From positions 1-51,635 of the forward strand of contig JAFVBE010000001.1 of the NCBI GenBank assembly GCA_017480195.1: a DNA stretch of 51,635 nucleotides, written 5' to 3'. This DNA is from Lachnospiraceae bacterium (GTDB taxonomy: Bacteria; Bacillota; Clostridia; Lachnospirales; Lachnospiraceae). The translations under genes were made by a program, and so were the position numbers. The notes beneath the pieces are model-generated. The model was not told the DNA's origin, did not search any database, and was given only the letters and a program-made list of their open reading frames with translations. Positions within the stretch are counted from its first letter, which is position 1; each line of letters starts with the position of its first letter. This document shows, piece by piece, positions 1,788 to 31,305 of this stretch.

Positions 1788-3716
1788 TTATTTATGGTAA
1801 ATTTTATTTTTTCCTTTTTTATTTTTTTTATAAGTTTCATAATCTTCAAGCATTTTTGCTCTATCAAACTTACCCATCTTTGTCAGCGGAATAGTATCAA
1901 CATAATATACCTCCGGTAAATAATATGATGATAAATTTTCTTCACACATTTTTTTTATTTCTTTTATATAAACCTTTTTTTCATTTGATGTTAGTTTTTC
2001 ATCATTAAATTCTATTCTAACAGCAGGCAAGTAACCTTGCTCAAATTTTATGTCTCTAATCCCAAATACCACACAATTTTTTACAGAAGAATGCTTTAAA
2101 ATAACATTTTCAATTTCTAACGGTGAAATTTTAAATCCATCATTTCTTACAATCAAATTTTTCTCACGATTAATTATAGTCAAATATCCCTCTTCGTCTA
2201 TATAACCAATATCTCCTGTATAAACATATTTTTCACCATTTATTTCAATGAAAGCATCTTGAGTTTCTTTTGGATTATTTAAGTATCCAATCATTAAATC
2301 ACCATTTACACATACAACGCCAATCTCATTATATTTTAAGGGTTTTAAAGTATTTGGATTAACAATAGCACAATTCATATCTAAAAAATTAATACCAACT
2401 GTACCACTTTTATTATAAATTCCTTGATTTGCTGTTGCTATACTTGTGTTTTCACTAAGTGCATATCCAGCTCCAAGATTCGTTTTTGAACCATGTTCAC
2501 TCAAGTATTTATTTAATTTATCATTATTAGTTTTACTTATACCATCGCCTCCACACGCAGGTGTTTTTAAAAAATCCAAATTAAAATCTTTTGGCACTTT
2601 TTTACTTGACATTAATGAAATCCAATGATTTGGAACACCTGCAATTGTATTTGGTTTTATAGATAAAATAATATCATCAAATTTAGCATTTGATGCATCT
2701 GCAATTGGATAAACATTCATATTTAATGCAAACGGCATATGAAAGCCCATAATCCCATAAAATATCCAAGGTGGCATAATTCCAAGTGATCTATACCCAG
2801 ATTTTAAATCCATTAAAGATTTTCTATATTGATTTGCAACAATATTTATACACTTATCATTCGCCATAACAGTTTTTGGAAAACCAAATGTTCCAGACGT
2901 ATGTAAAAATAAAGTTGGTTTATCATCGTCATACTTGGTTCCTTCTACATTTTTATAATTTGATTTCATTTTTTCTAAATCTTTTGGCAAAAATATAGAA
3001 TCTCCTAATTTTTTATATCCAATTTCATTAGCCCAAATCAATGTTTTACCAATATTTTTCTTAATTGAGTTTTTTAATTCATAAAAAGGTGGCGTAAATA
3101 ATTTAATCTTTTTAACACTTGTTTCATTCATGATTTCTTTAATTAATTTAGGGTTGACTGTTTCCATACAGAATAAATATTTTGATTCAGTTTCATTAAT
3201 ATATTTCTTGATACCTTCGGGCGAAGTTCTTAAATCAACTATGTTTCTACCTGCATTTATTTTTGATAGTGCATAAAAATCACTATAGGTGCTAGGCATA
3301 GATGGCAACAAAAAAGTAATTCTATCACTGCTTGAAATACCAAGTAAATCATTTACATATGCTTCTTTTTCTATTGATTCTTTAAATTGATTATAACTAA
3401 TTTCACAATCAATAGTTAACGCAGTACCATTATATCCATCAGTAATTTTCATAAAATAATCATATGCACTTTGCTTTGGATTAAGAGTTTTATTCTGTTT
3501 TCTATTTAAAACTATCATTTCATACAAATAATATATCCTATGAATTTTATCTATATGAGGATATCCAGATATTAACCCATTTTCATTCAATGTTTTTATA
3601 ATTAGTGAAATATCATATAATTTATCAGATTCATTAATTATATCTTTTTTGAATTTATTATTTTCATCAAGTTTTTTTATCACATCAATAATGTTTTCTT
3701 CTAATAAAGTTTTCAT
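1788..3716 (-). CDS. AMP-dependent acyl/aryl ligase (ANL superfamily)
   Basis: Adenylate-forming enzyme of 642 aa that should activate a carboxylic acid with ATP. Motifs seen: the P-loop LHTSGTFGFPKT near residue 270, the AMP-binding segment around GAGYALSENTS, the core YTGDIGYIDEEGYLTI with hinge NREKNLI near 510, and the C-terminal catalytic lysine region LTKMGKFDRAKM. The substrate is unknown. No carrier protein, thioesterase or biosynthetic partner is nearby. Base composition is clearly more A/T-rich than the housekeeping genes, with mostly A/T-ending codons, which suggests recent acquisition. It lies 61 nt downstream of the SIR2-like gene in the same direction and could be co-transcribed. 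No good ribosome binding site is seen at the ATG, so the start is less certain than the frame. Confidence 0.85.
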   Translation of the reverse strand: MKTLLEENIIDVIKKLDENNKFKKDIINESDKLYDISLIIKTLNENGLISGYPHIDKIHRIYYLYEMIVLNRKQNKTLNPKQSAYDYFMKITDGYNGTALTIDCEISYNQFKESIEKEAYVNDLLGISSSDRITFLLPSMPSTYSDFYALSKINAGRNIVDLRTSPEGIKKYINETESKYLFCMETVNPKLIKEIMNETSVKKIKLFTPPFYELKNSIKKNIGKTLIWANEIGYKKLGDSIFLPKDLEKMKSNYKNVEGTKYDDDKPTLFLHTSGTFGFPKTVMANDKCINIVANQYRKSLMDLKSGYRSLGIMPPWIFYGIMGFHMPFALNMNVYPIADASNAKFDDIILSIKPNTIAGVPNHWISLMSSKKVPKDFNLDFLKTPACGGDGISKTNNDKLNKYLSEHGSKTNLGAGYALSENTSIATANQGIYNKSGTVGINFLDMNCAIVNPNTLKPLKYNEIGVVCVNGDLMIGYLNNPKETQDAFIEINGEKYVYTGDIGYIDEEGYLTIINREKNLIVRNDGFKISPLEIENVILKHSSVKNCVVFGIRDIKFEQGYLPAVRIEFNDEKLTSNEKKVYIKEIKKMCEENLSSYYLPEVYYVDTIPLTKMGKFDRAKMLEDYETYKKNKKGKNKIYHK

Positions 3717-28475: not shown

Positions 28476-28973
28476 CTACTCTGTTTTATTTTCTTTAATA
28501 TACGCTGTAATCACATAATTTCTTTTCCTCTTAGAAGAATTTACTGCCTCGACAATATAATATGTGCCATCAATCTTTTTCTCTATTTTAATCATAGGTG
28601 ACGGTTCTCCATTTTCATCAAGATATCCTGTTGTTGTCACCCCTTCATATATTATCTTATCAAAATTCATAATTACATATCCCATTCTTGCTATATCTTC
28701 AATATTTTTCATAGAATGGTCCTGCTTTCCTTCCTTGCCGTGACGCTTTTCAATATGCTTTATTCCATTAATATCAAGCACAACTCTACTTCCCGTAACC
28801 TTTTTTCCTGTTAATCTCTCTATTTCTAATTCTGCTTTTTTCGGCAAGAAAGCTATTGTTATGTAATTTAATTTATCTTCACCATCAATAGCAGCTTTTA
28901 CAAAATCATAAACCTCTCTATCAATCGAATCATTAAAATGTCTTATAATTTCTAACTCCTTCTTAGTATGCAT
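28476..28973 (-). CDS. PBECR-type nuclease (BECR fold toxin-like)
   Basis: Protein of 165 aa. The conserved block runs VLDINGIKHIEKRHGKEG, then SMKNIEDIARMGYVIMNFD. A C-terminal pair of strands follows, KIDGTYYIVEAVNSSKRKRN with VITAYI. This arrangement (His near the HIEKRHG motif, Arg/Lys in the NSSKRKR loop) is that of phage-associated Barnase-EndoU-ColicinE5/RelE (PBECR) nucleases, usually attached to phage MuF proteins. Here it stands alone, without a phage module. Start ATG 28971-28973 has GGAGGAGG at about 11 nt, while the upstream ATG lies inside it. No immunity gene is obvious. Assignment is from motif memory. Confidence 0.6.
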   Translation of the reverse strand: MHTKKELEIIRHFNDSIDREVYDFVKAAIDGEDKLNYITIAFLPKKAELEIERLTGKKVTGSRVVLDINGIKHIEKRHGKEGKQDHSMKNIEDIARMGYVIMNFDKIIYEGVTTTGYLDENGEPSPMIKIEKKIDGTYYIVEAVNSSKRKRNYVITAYIKENKTE

Positions 28974-29158
28974 AATAACAAAGTCCTCCTCCATACATTT
29001 AATATTTTTTCATTCCTCCTGAATTACTTCTCCAACAGATGATACGACATTAACTTTTATAAAGCGGATTAATCAGAACATATAACACAGAAATCAAAAA
29101 ATCAATAGAAAAAGCAAAATGCAACAAATCGTGTCATTTTTATGTAAACAGAAATAAA

Positions 29159-29842
29159 TTATGTAAACAAAACAACCATAATATCATAAAAGGCGTGAAC
29201 AATTATAGGATTCCACAGGCTCTTTCCTTTTTTCAAAAGCATGCAGAAAACCACACCCCAAACTAATACTGAAACACTCTGTAGGGCTATGCCCATGAAG
29301 TCAAATGTTCCAAACCTGTAGAACTTTATAAAGTAAGCAGGCCAATGTAATAGTACAAATAATATAGTAGATATAATAATCGCCTGTCTATCTGATACAA
29401 TCTGAGCCAATGCATTATATCCCCATCCTCTAAAAACAGTCTCCTCAACAAAACCAACCACGATAAGTTTTATTATCTCCAATGACAGATTAACTTCCTT
29501 GTTAAACCATAAGCCACGATGATAAATCAGCATTTCAAAAAATACTAATACAATTGACACTAAAATTGTAATTATAAATAATTTATTAAATCTCGGAGCT
29601 GAAAAAAGCTGTTTCCTGCTCATATACAAGGAATTACTATATTTGACAATCAACATAAATGCCGGTATAACCCATATTAATCGGCTTATATATCCATATA
29701 TGTATTTTCCATTACTAAAATCAAATAAATCCGAGTATCCCCACGCATCTGTCACAACAGCCCACAAAATAATAAAAAAGTTAAGAGATAATACTATTTT
29801 ATTTAATGATAGATTTTTTTGTTTTGAGGGTTCTAAAATCAT
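29159..29842 (-). CDS. CPBP family intramembrane metalloprotease
   Basis: Membrane protein of 227 aa with about six or seven hydrophobic helices. The Abi/CAAX-protease signature is present: EExxFRG in VGFVEETVFRGWGYNAL near residue 130, and a histidine in FVLLHWPAYF near 165, the second metal ligand; the third His is in WNPIIVHAFYD near 215. Relatives include CAAX prenyl proteases and bacteriocin-immunity proteins (PncO, SkkI). It lies 48 nt downstream of the type III toxin gene and may be on the same transcript. Confidence 0.9.
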   Translation of the reverse strand: MILEPSKQKNLSLNKIVLSLNFFIILWAVVTDAWGYSDLFDFSNGKYIYGYISRLIWVIPAFMLIVKYSNSLYMSRKQLFSAPRFNKLFIITILVSIVLVFFEMLIYHRGLWFNKEVNLSLEIIKLIVVGFVEETVFRGWGYNALAQIVSDRQAIIISTILFVLLHWPAYFIKFYRFGTFDFMGIALQSVSVLVWGVVFCMLLKKGKSLWNPIIVHAFYDIMVVLFT

Positions 29843-29890
29843 ATTAAAATTCCTTTAAACAAAAGAGCAATAAACTCATCTGTACGAACT

Positions 29891-30370
29891 TTACTGTTGC
29901 AATTTCAATTCTTGATTGTAATTAATAAGACTTGAAACACGATACAATGGTTCTTTATTAACACGTTTTTTCTTATAAGCCTTGATATAGCCATTTAAAT
30001 ATACCTCGAATTCTTTCCTTATATGTGATATATCTCTTTCAATAGCGCGATATTGTGAACGCGGTATTTTTCGTTCGTTTTGCCATTCCAAATATTTATT
30101 ATTATTTATAACAAGGGCATATCGATAGTCCAATCCAGCCTTTCCTCTTTTTTCAGACGGAATTGAATGTCCAATTCGTCCAAATTTCCTTAAATCTTCC
30201 CCTAAATTATTTCTTAATGGTATTAGAAAGTTGTTGTCATTGCTTTCTATACACAGACATAAATGTGACCGTCTTGATTGTTTTAATGTATTACCGGCAT
30301 CAAGCATATTTATGTAATCATTATGTAGTTTAAAATACTCTTCTTTTATAAAACAATATTTTATATTCAT
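29891..30370 (-). CDS. Type III toxin-antitoxin toxin, endoribonuclease (CptN/TenpN-like)
   Basis: Protein of 159 aa resembling the ToxN/CptN/TenpN RNases that cut mRNA and their own antitoxin RNA. Visible: a basic cap near KQSRRSHLCLC, the central strand NNFLIPLRNNLGEDL (like the 'YFIPL/FAPL' strand of the family), DYRYALVINNNKYLE near 100, and a basic helix YIKAYKKKRVNK near 136-147. ATG 30368-30370 has GAGGT at 30378-30382. The decisive support is upstream: promoter, two RNA repeats and a terminator hairpin directly before the gene, the standard type III layout. Two repeats of 46-47 nt match the CptIN family best; that subfamily is inferred. Confidence 0.8.
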   Translation of the reverse strand: MNIKYCFIKEEYFKLHNDYINMLDAGNTLKQSRRSHLCLCIESNDNNFLIPLRNNLGEDLRKFGRIGHSIPSEKRGKAGLDYRYALVINNNKYLEWQNERKIPRSQYRAIERDISHIRKEFEVYLNGYIKAYKKKRVNKEPLYRVSSLINYNQELKLQQ

Positions 30371-30385
30371 AATACTTACCTCGTT

Positions 30386-30521
30386 AAAAAAGGGAGCTAA
30401 ACGCTCCCATAATATCTTCAGCTTTTTTTAGACAGGTACATCTGACAAACCCCTCACAATTTCTTCAGTTTTTTATTGCCGGATACATCTGACAAACCTC
30501 CACAATGGAAATTTAGTTTCC
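30386..30521 (-). ncRNA. Type III antitoxin RNA with two tandem repeats
   Basis: On the minus strand two direct repeats follow one another: unit A 30505-30460 (46 nt) and unit B 30459-30413 (47 nt). Shared blocks are TTGTG, GGTTTGTCAGATGTA, CC, TAAAAAA and CTGAAG. Differences include GGCAA versus TGTCT in the middle. A short third start (TTATGGGAGC) runs into a terminator: GGGAGC, loop GTTTA, GCTCCC (30392-30408) and six T. The 5' leader has a small hairpin GGAAACTAAATTTCC. The terminator would limit readthrough into the toxin, the known way type III systems keep antitoxin in excess. Confidence 0.8.
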
Positions 30522-30527
30522 AATAAT

Positions 30528-30556
30528 ATAATATTTCAATTTATACTTTTAGTCAA
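30528..30556 (-). promoter_or_regulatory. Sigma-70 type promoter of the type III toxin-antitoxin locus
   Basis: On the minus strand TTGACT (30551-30556) is followed, after exactly 17 nt, by TATTAT (30528-30533). Both boxes differ from the consensus by one base. Transcription should begin near 30521, 16 nt before the first RNA repeat. Confidence 0.75.
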
Positions 30557-30588
30557 TACTTTTTTAGATTTTTATTTATTGATAATCA

Positions 30589-30951
30589 TTACATCGGTGT
30601 TCCCACTTCAATCAAATTACCATCCAAATCATAAAATCTGACAACCTTTTGTCCCCAATCGTGAACCATAAGCCGATTAACATACTGAATTTGCGGATAT
30701 AGCTTCTCTAATTTTTCAACAAAAGTCTCTATATTATTTTCTTCAAAATAAAGCTCACAGGAATTATTTTCCGGAATTATATCCTTTTCAAGAACCTCTT
30801 TCCAAACCTTTTCATCCTGCAACACAAGACCTTCAGTTAAAATCATATTACCGTCATTATCAAGCACAACATCAAGCCCGAAAAGGTTATGATAAAACTT
30901 CTTTGATTTTTCAATATCCTTGACAACAATTAAAATGTTTCTTAATTTCAT
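30589..30951 (-). CDS. VOC/glyoxalase-like protein
   Basis: Single vicinal-oxygen-chelate domain protein of 120 aa (MKLRNILIVVKDIEKSKKFY start). The two beta-alpha-beta-beta-beta units end with the typical VRFYDLDGNLIEVGTP. The possible metal ligands are limited: His of VHDWGQKV near 102 and Glu near 115. It could be a dioxygenase, lyase or antibiotic-binding protein; no substrate can be told. ATG 30949-30951 has AGGAGA. An earlier start is rejected because it overlaps the XRE gene without a ribosome site. A broken copy of the 5' end lies at 27704-27754. Confidence 0.82.
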   Translation of the reverse strand: MKLRNILIVVKDIEKSKKFYHNLFGLDVVLDNDGNMILTEGLVLQDEKVWKEVLEKDIIPENNSCELYFEENNIETFVEKLEKLYPQIQYVNRLMVHDWGQKVVRFYDLDGNLIEVGTPM

Positions 30952-30968
30952 TAATTCAATATCTCCTG

Positions 30969-31187
30969 TCAAATACATAATTTCATTAAATCGCTACTAC
31001 ATTTTTTTAGTGGAACGATTTGCAAGGTATAACCTAATGGTGTGAGTATTCTAAGCAAACTATCAATCTGAGGCGAATGTACAGCCTTTTCCATACGTGC
31101 TATCACAGGCTGCTTAACATTACACTTTGCAGTAAGCTCAGCCTGAGACAGTCCTTGTTCCTCTCTAAATTCCTTCCATGTATTCAT
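30969..31187 (-). CDS. XRE-family HTH protein, HigA-antitoxin-like, orphan
   Basis: Small DNA-binding protein of 72 aa. The helix-turn-helix is FREEQGLSQAELTAKCNVKQ, then PVIARMEKAVHSPQ, the layout of HigA and MqsA-type antitoxins. A C-terminal strand LGYTLQIVPL is the usual antitoxin-fold ending. Such proteins nearly always follow a HigB/RelE RNase gene, but the 290 nt upstream (31188-31478) hold only a long hairpin element, so the toxin is missing. RBS GAGGAG precedes ATG 31185-31187. It lies 17 nt before the VOC gene. Confidence 0.8.
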   Translation of the reverse strand: MNTWKEFREEQGLSQAELTAKCNVKQPVIARMEKAVHSPQIDSLLRILTPLGYTLQIVPLKKCSSDLMKLCI

Positions 31188-31305
31188 TATTACCACTCCT
31201 CTTTTTATAACCATCTAATTCACGGATTGCCTTTTTAGTATAATAACAAATTTGCTATAATGTTTGTTTTAATAAAAACATATAAATCTAACATATGCGT
31301 AGCAT

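Follow-up and report, generated by a model that had tools for sequence, protein, structure and literature searches.

What kind of system does a gut bacterium of the Lachnospiraceae encode at positions 29,891 to 30,556 of contig JAFVBE010000001.1, and to which family does it belong? We addressed this question in positions 1 to 51,635 of the contig (the window, meaning the whole 51,635-nucleotide stretch that was analyzed). An earlier note on this DNA had read the locus as a type III (RNA–protein) toxin–antitoxin system of the CptIN family. Here we describe its layout, the fold of a model of its toxin, a pseudoknot that covaries across its antitoxin units, the pairing of antitoxin class with toxin across genomes, and selection on the toxin. 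Layout, fold, RNA covariation, and co-occurrence support the type III assignment, and the toxin groups with TenpIN instead of CptIN. The reading as a whole, to which we give a probability of roughly 0.93, is that of a chromosomal type III module of a TenpIN-like branch, whose pseudoknot units would inhibit an endoribonuclease of the ToxN/MazF fold by closing a ring with it.

The locus has the layout of a type III system

The locus lies entirely on the minus strand and runs in the order promoter, leader hairpin, two 47-nt units, terminator, GAGG, and toxin open reading frame (ORF), thus containing the type III succession of promoter, tandem repeats, terminator, and toxin (Table 1). The elements that had been named before were all found: a near-consensus promoter, two tandem 46/47-nt repeats, a terminator hairpin with six T, and a toxin ORF whose earlier coordinates fit. 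The repeats form an array at 30406–30506 (period 47, 2.2 copies, score 130) that is the strongest of the window's three, and the terminator hairpin was the sole one detected in the scanned 901-base stretch (shuffled mean 0.4). Promoter-like sites in that stretch numbered 8 compared to 5.4 (standard deviation 2.2) in shuffles, and because this count is not clearly above the shuffles, it is the position of the site that supports the promoter call. An Rfam scan of the window gave no match at gathering scores, and a search of 351 bases at permissive settings yielded two matches far below threshold. We consider the locus to be beyond chance for the following reasons: in other genomes, homologous toxins likewise have a homologous array with covarying stems in front of them, and the changes that separate the toxin from that of L003, a copy in genome G013 (L and G numbers denote loci and genomes), are mostly synonymous.

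The toxin is TenpIN-like and has a predicted ToxN/MazF-type fold

The search of the toxin against family profiles that the earlier note proposed gave a match to TenpIN (NF047358; 84 bits, E 1.1e-23), in which amino acids 13–155 of 159 align to profile positions 6–141 of 141, near-full-profile homology. The score is below the curated 90-bit cut-off, as it is for the other branch members with known scores (L010 84.7, L011 84.0, L012 78.2, L013 74.7, L014 68.8, L032 77.9, L033 62.8, and L048 88.6 bits). By profile comparison, then, the toxin is TenpIN-like and not a full TenpIN member. In a structure search with the predicted toxin model, the five best entries were all type III toxins, which agrees with the earlier description of a ToxN/CptN-like gene (Kid/MazF-like fold); CptN ranked last of the five by Z, within a small spread of 2.4. 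No solved structure from the TenpIN side turned up in our Protein Data Bank (PDB) searches. By analogy with these folds, the toxin is likely an endoribonuclease. Compared to L003, the gene carries 16 synonymous codon differences and 1 nonsynonymous difference (dN/dS 0.03), and 30 columns are invariant across 11 members.

The antitoxin units are predicted to form H-type pseudoknots

To describe the RNA, we aligned 28 units cut from 15 loci, with unit borders and the tested structure set by eye. The set leaves out L003/L011 and L012 (near copies of the window locus and L013) and the second L064 unit (identical to the first); L105 and L129 are absent from it and were used in the position-identity test only. 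The tested structure has two helices that cross, S1 and S2, each of 5 pairs, with 4 of the S2 pairs as core. Paired cells made up 87.1% of 280 compared to 74.1% after shuffling, and both-sided changes occurred in 7 of the 10 pairs (39 such cells versus 9.5 shuffled). The covariation score was 0.398, compared to 0.193 for shuffles and at most 0.127 for slid versions of the structure. All 28 units keep the four core S2 pairs. At S1 pair 4, we found C–G in 10 units and G–A in 18 with no other combination, the G–A form being present in 12/13 second units and 6/15 first units. Since both crossing helices covary over the 28 units, we predict that the antitoxin unit is an H-type pseudoknot, the fold that had been proposed for checking and the one expected of a type III antitoxin unit. 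The long A-rich loop of the window units resembles that of CptI, in which the A-rich loop sits in the S1 minor groove according to the consulted part of PMC4627078.

The 5-nt block by which the two window units differ (GGCAA/TGTCT) abuts a stem end, and its partner strand differs too (GGAGG/AGGGG). The earlier suggestion that this block may tune folding or toxin choice thus holds in its first half: the data support altered folding letters with compensation. Toxin choice is without support, because no third unit of the window class was found in the window genome by a covariance search that is lossy, and because the other TenpIN locus of that genome has a different antitoxin class.

Antitoxin class and toxin occur together across genomes

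A covariance model of the unit, searched against 99 relatives, found 16 units in 8 genomes, two per genome, and in all 8 the units sit directly upstream of a toxin match. The toxin is intact in G000, G003, G012, G013, G052, G056, and G457 and broken in G019. The search is lossy, with 19 matches on 21 known loci and some known units missed; at L068 a single unit was seen. The second TenpIN locus of the window genome (L001, G000:C29:40831-41265) scores 168.5 bits, over the cut-off, and its units belong to a different antitoxin class. The TenpIN loci over the cut-off in this analysis carry other unit types, for example one with a 7-bp S1 with CGGT/ACCG (pairing by eye).

Two side observations concern the arrays. 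In G019, L004 (2178–2713, on the L015 contig) keeps both units and the promoter region with a toxin broken by internal loss, and intact copies exist in relatives; we regard it as a candidate stand-alone antitoxin. On the plasmids pLI100 (L086), pBS72 (L087), and pUCD5000 (L088), two unequal repeats precede the toxin, and similar stems seem possible by eye.

Evidence against the assignment and alternative explanations

Several observations weigh against our reading. The toxin's score does not reach the TenpIN cut-off, and searches with the protein gave no Pfam match over cut-off, nothing in PADLOC, and no PDB sequence match of any meaning. Catalytic residues could not be mapped: when profiles were aligned with a CptN relative, the probability was 8.8% and PLRNN fell opposite the CptN PLSS. 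On the RNA side, the covariance model missed unit 1 of the window itself, and the count of further pair types did not exceed that of the shuffles (471/500 as high). Most units have G–A at S1 pair 4, 4 of 28 leave S1 pair 5 unpaired, and half (14 of 28) leave the outer S2 pair 18:39 unpaired; RNAalifold, a program unable to represent pseudoknots, recovers S2 alone (–2.17 kcal/mol).

Could the locus nonetheless be of the CptIN family, as the earlier note held? The repeat number and length it relied on are present, since CptIN has two repeats of about 45 nt, but this trait is not specific to CptIN. The window toxin has no match to the CptIN profile NF047359 at E ≤ 1 while the CptIN relative L044 scores 175.8 bits, and it is on this basis that we reject the family. 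Moreover, the CptIN relative sits behind two identical repeats whereas the window units differ, the TenpIN profile matches with strong significance, and CptN comes behind the other four type III folds, though by a small spread. We therefore judge a CptIN locus to be very improbable. A slightly less improbable alternative, which we still hold to be unlikely, is a relic locus whose toxin is a relative that has decayed or lost its activity. Decay does happen in the genus, because the L004/L015 toxin is broken behind two retained units, and a very weak alignment shows no clear sign of the CptN Ser pair in the window protein; against this stand the intact reading frame, the dN/dS of 0.03, the 30 invariant columns, and the covarying antitoxin. 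Finally, the repeats might act as DNA, as an operator or iteron, given that operators too can show short tandem repeats between promoter and gene. That changes in stem letters are coordinated from unit to unit and from locus to locus, that a terminator lies downstream of the repeats, and that homologous arrays precede toxins of the same fold in other genomes make this the least credible of the three.

Features and neighborhood of the locus

Table 1. Features of the TenpIN-like module; coordinates are those of the window.
Feature	Position	Strand	Basis or detail
Sigma-70-type promoter, TTGACT-17-TATTAT	30528..30556	-	10/12 consensus matches
5' leader hairpin, GGAAA-CUAAA-UUUCC	30507..30521	-	at expected transcript start; window-only p 0.088
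Antitoxin unit 1, 47 nt from stem 1	30455..30501	-	predicted S1 30501-30497/30485-30481; S2 30492-30489/30468-30465; A-rich loop between
Antitoxin unit 2, 47 nt	30408..30454	-	predicted S1 30454-30450/30438-30434; S2 30445-30442/30421-30418; A-rich loop between
Intrinsic terminator between antitoxin and toxin	30386..30408	-	6-bp stem (hairpin 30408-30392) + six T
GAGG, presumed ribosome-binding site ahead of ATG at 30370	30379..30382	-	sequence
Toxin gene, 159 aa, TenpIN-like, ToxN/MazF-type fold (putative ribonuclease)	29891..30370	-	
Whole module as one block	29859..30574	-	96.1% identity to L003, 717-column alignment

The module is flanked by a glyoxalase-like gene (30589–30978) and a gene for an Rce1/CPBP-type protease (29159–29842). 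Farther out, the window holds a helix-turn-helix gene (30969–31214; Pfam HTH_3) resembling a G013 gene (L097) that adjoins a RelE-like gene missing in the window, and a gene with a PBECR3-type nuclease domain (28476–28994; E 3.7e-16) within the stretch between the prfC and carB readings. The names carB, prfC, RelE, and tail protein were assigned by reading sequences unless a profile match is given.

Predicted leader hairpins precede the arrays

In 11/15 leaders of the window's antitoxin class, RNAfold drew a hairpin with at least 5 pairs and a loop no longer than 8 nt. Tested singly against mononucleotide shuffles, 4 of the 15 gave p < 0.05 (Fisher 3e-5), and in the other TenpIN antitoxin class 11/17 did so (Fisher 5e-12); because the leaders are related, these combined values are too good. 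That the stem letters vary between loci speaks for structure. Such a hairpin could plausibly shield the antitoxin precursor against 5' decay. As a separate observation, in the other class (L001, L005, L018, L020, L024, L029, and others) the leader, for example TCTTCATC, looks complementary to the post-array stretch GATGAAGA, with letters altered on both sides in L020 and L029; by eye, this pairing is a possible closing helix around the array.

The two units are unequal in some branches

Across 16 two-unit loci, identity between loci was 0.716 for units at the same position and 0.671 across positions, a difference reached by 10 of 5000 label swaps; relatedness between loci enters into all of these tests. 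The effect is uneven. It is greatest in L033, L082, L083, L084, and L129 (within-locus 0.473, same-position between loci 0.889, cross-position 0.476; 313/5000 swaps, where five loci allow no value below 1 in 16), and the toxins of L083, L084, and L033 are only 59–62% identical to that of L082, with L129 at 54%. The window's group of six gave 0.811 within loci, 0.837 for the same position, and 0.771 across (178/5000 swaps). No position effect was found for L010, L048, L049, L064, and L105 (5000/5000 swaps), whose units are alike within a locus (mean 92%; 76–100% in the first four). From this unevenness we conclude that unequal units characterize some of the branches, with the window in the middle.

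In the full-score TenpIN class, S1 stems are identical in 10/16 two-unit loci, some of which are close relatives, and this led us to reject as a rule the idea that stems of neighboring units always differ to block cross-folding. In L020, L021, L024, L029, L060, and L074, S1 differs at 2–6 of 14 places and the remainder at 1–3 of 28. The CptIN relative L044 has two identical units. Tentatively, and with more doubt than confidence, we raise the idea that the two units are dedicated RNAs with separate roles, held apart by position over long divergence; these may be, for example, one unit per site of an asymmetric toxin–RNA ring, or processing versus inhibition.

Spread and mobility

The TenpIN profile matched in 11/61 genomes and in 28/397 in the family, and branch profiles in 19/392 in the order and 15/391 in the class, counts that include weak matches to other TenpIN branches. 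Among 72,556 plasmid records, 40 carry related proteins (27 of the 40 are from Listeria), and all but one of the 30 listed places bear the annotation "hypothetical protein." In IMG/VR, a first scan with the window protein found none, and alignments then revealed relatives on 3 and later on 4 contigs. One narrow 23-letter pattern found no phage antitoxin decoys there.

The alignment to L003 ends just outside the promoter and the stop codon, and the G013 copy lies at a different genomic place; the G013 interval between its carB (90%) and prfC (94.8%) readings lacks the module. This suggests movement as a bare cassette or relocation. No transposase was noticed beside the module, in work that included no search aimed at transposases.

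Three records were noted as side observations. In L082 (2243–3650, IMGVR_UViG_2854395284_000001), a relative of the module lies between two group I intron family matches below the gathering score of 50 (5', weak, 18.9 bits, E 0.047; 3', 33.1 bits, E 2.7e-6), and by eye it seems to interrupt a phage structural gene, with an ORF at 109–2271 and the frame resuming near 3650; PHROGs tail/structural families match in the 3' part only. The intron matches were not recovered in scans of longer stretches, and no intron-free homologue was found. Group I intron cargo sites are often occupied by homing endonucleases; here, the cargo is probably a toxin–antitoxin module, for which the titles and abstract openings of 10 papers listed in a literature search gave no precedent. 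The module in L083 (538–3492) has an HNH homing endonuclease (phrog_559) as well as a tape-measure fragment (phrog_4211) in its vicinity, and no Rfam intron match was found. MT835727.1 (L085), labelled Bacteriophage sp., carries a copy with 98.2% identity to the L033 toxin amid genes that look chromosome-like by eye; we rejected it as a phage home, as it is probably bacterial DNA.

Discussion

In ToxIN and CptIN, the toxin cuts its own antitoxin precursor, and the unit remains bound and silences it in a closed ring (consulted parts of PMC5086642 and PMC4627078). Terminator read-through, processing, ring assembly, toxicity, and trigger are modelled here on those systems. A single promoter would give a short RNA in which a 5' hairpin precedes the two 47-nt units, and transcripts would mostly end at the terminator, so that antitoxin RNA exceeds toxin mRNA. 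Each unit would fold with an S1 of 3–5 pairs, roughly 4 loop nucleotides (UUUG), an S2 of UCAG/CUGA, and an A-rich loop most likely along S1. Cleavage of the precursor by the toxin would fall in the linker that follows each S2, with A^UUG as the probable site, and each unit would stay bound across a toxin active site in a closed, silencing ring. When transcription fails, for example upon phage infection, the RNA would be lost first, and freed toxin would cut cellular and phage RNA. Abortive infection is possible: the consulted sections report it for TenpIN of Photorhabdus (PMC5377504) and report no such effect for E. rectale CptIN, which was challenged in E. coli with more than 200 coliphages (PMC4627078).

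The module shares with TenpIN (type locus tenpIN, Photorhabdus luminescens) the order of repeats, terminator, and toxin, while the TenpIN loci over the cut-off in this analysis have other antitoxin units. From CptIN of Eubacterium rectale (4RMO) it differs, beyond the profile and the unequal units, in its first loop, which has about 4 nt where CptIN has 1. ToxIN/AbiQ (2XD0, 4ATO, 7D8O, 4GLK) have units of 34–36 nt in 2.8–5.5 copies, as given for three loci in the consulted part of PMC5086642, and two 47-nt units fall outside this range. That source describes type III antitoxins as tandem repeats of one RNA. Within the consulted parts of PMC5086642, PMC4627078, PMC5377504, PMC8860590, and PMC12804078, and leaving aside the original classification (10.1093/nar/gks231) and the repeats of PMC5086642 Figure 5, we found neither a TenpI pseudoknot model nor position-specific units; though the kind of system is known, we found the branch, the fold of its RNA, and the difference between its units described in none of these sources.

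For the TenpIN side, the predicted pseudoknot, with its C–G/G–A alternative at one pair, is a concrete model. In this TenpIN-like branch, the two units share a pseudoknot and differ in their stems, and in one group they differ by half their letters with each conserved by position; repeat finders could miss such arrays. The related toxins, mostly annotated as hypothetical in the listed plasmid places, occur in many Clostridia and on plasmids. If the units are dedicated RNAs, the rule of one repeated unit per type III antitoxin would no longer hold, and if their roles differ, the ring-inhibition model of type III systems would need an asymmetric version.
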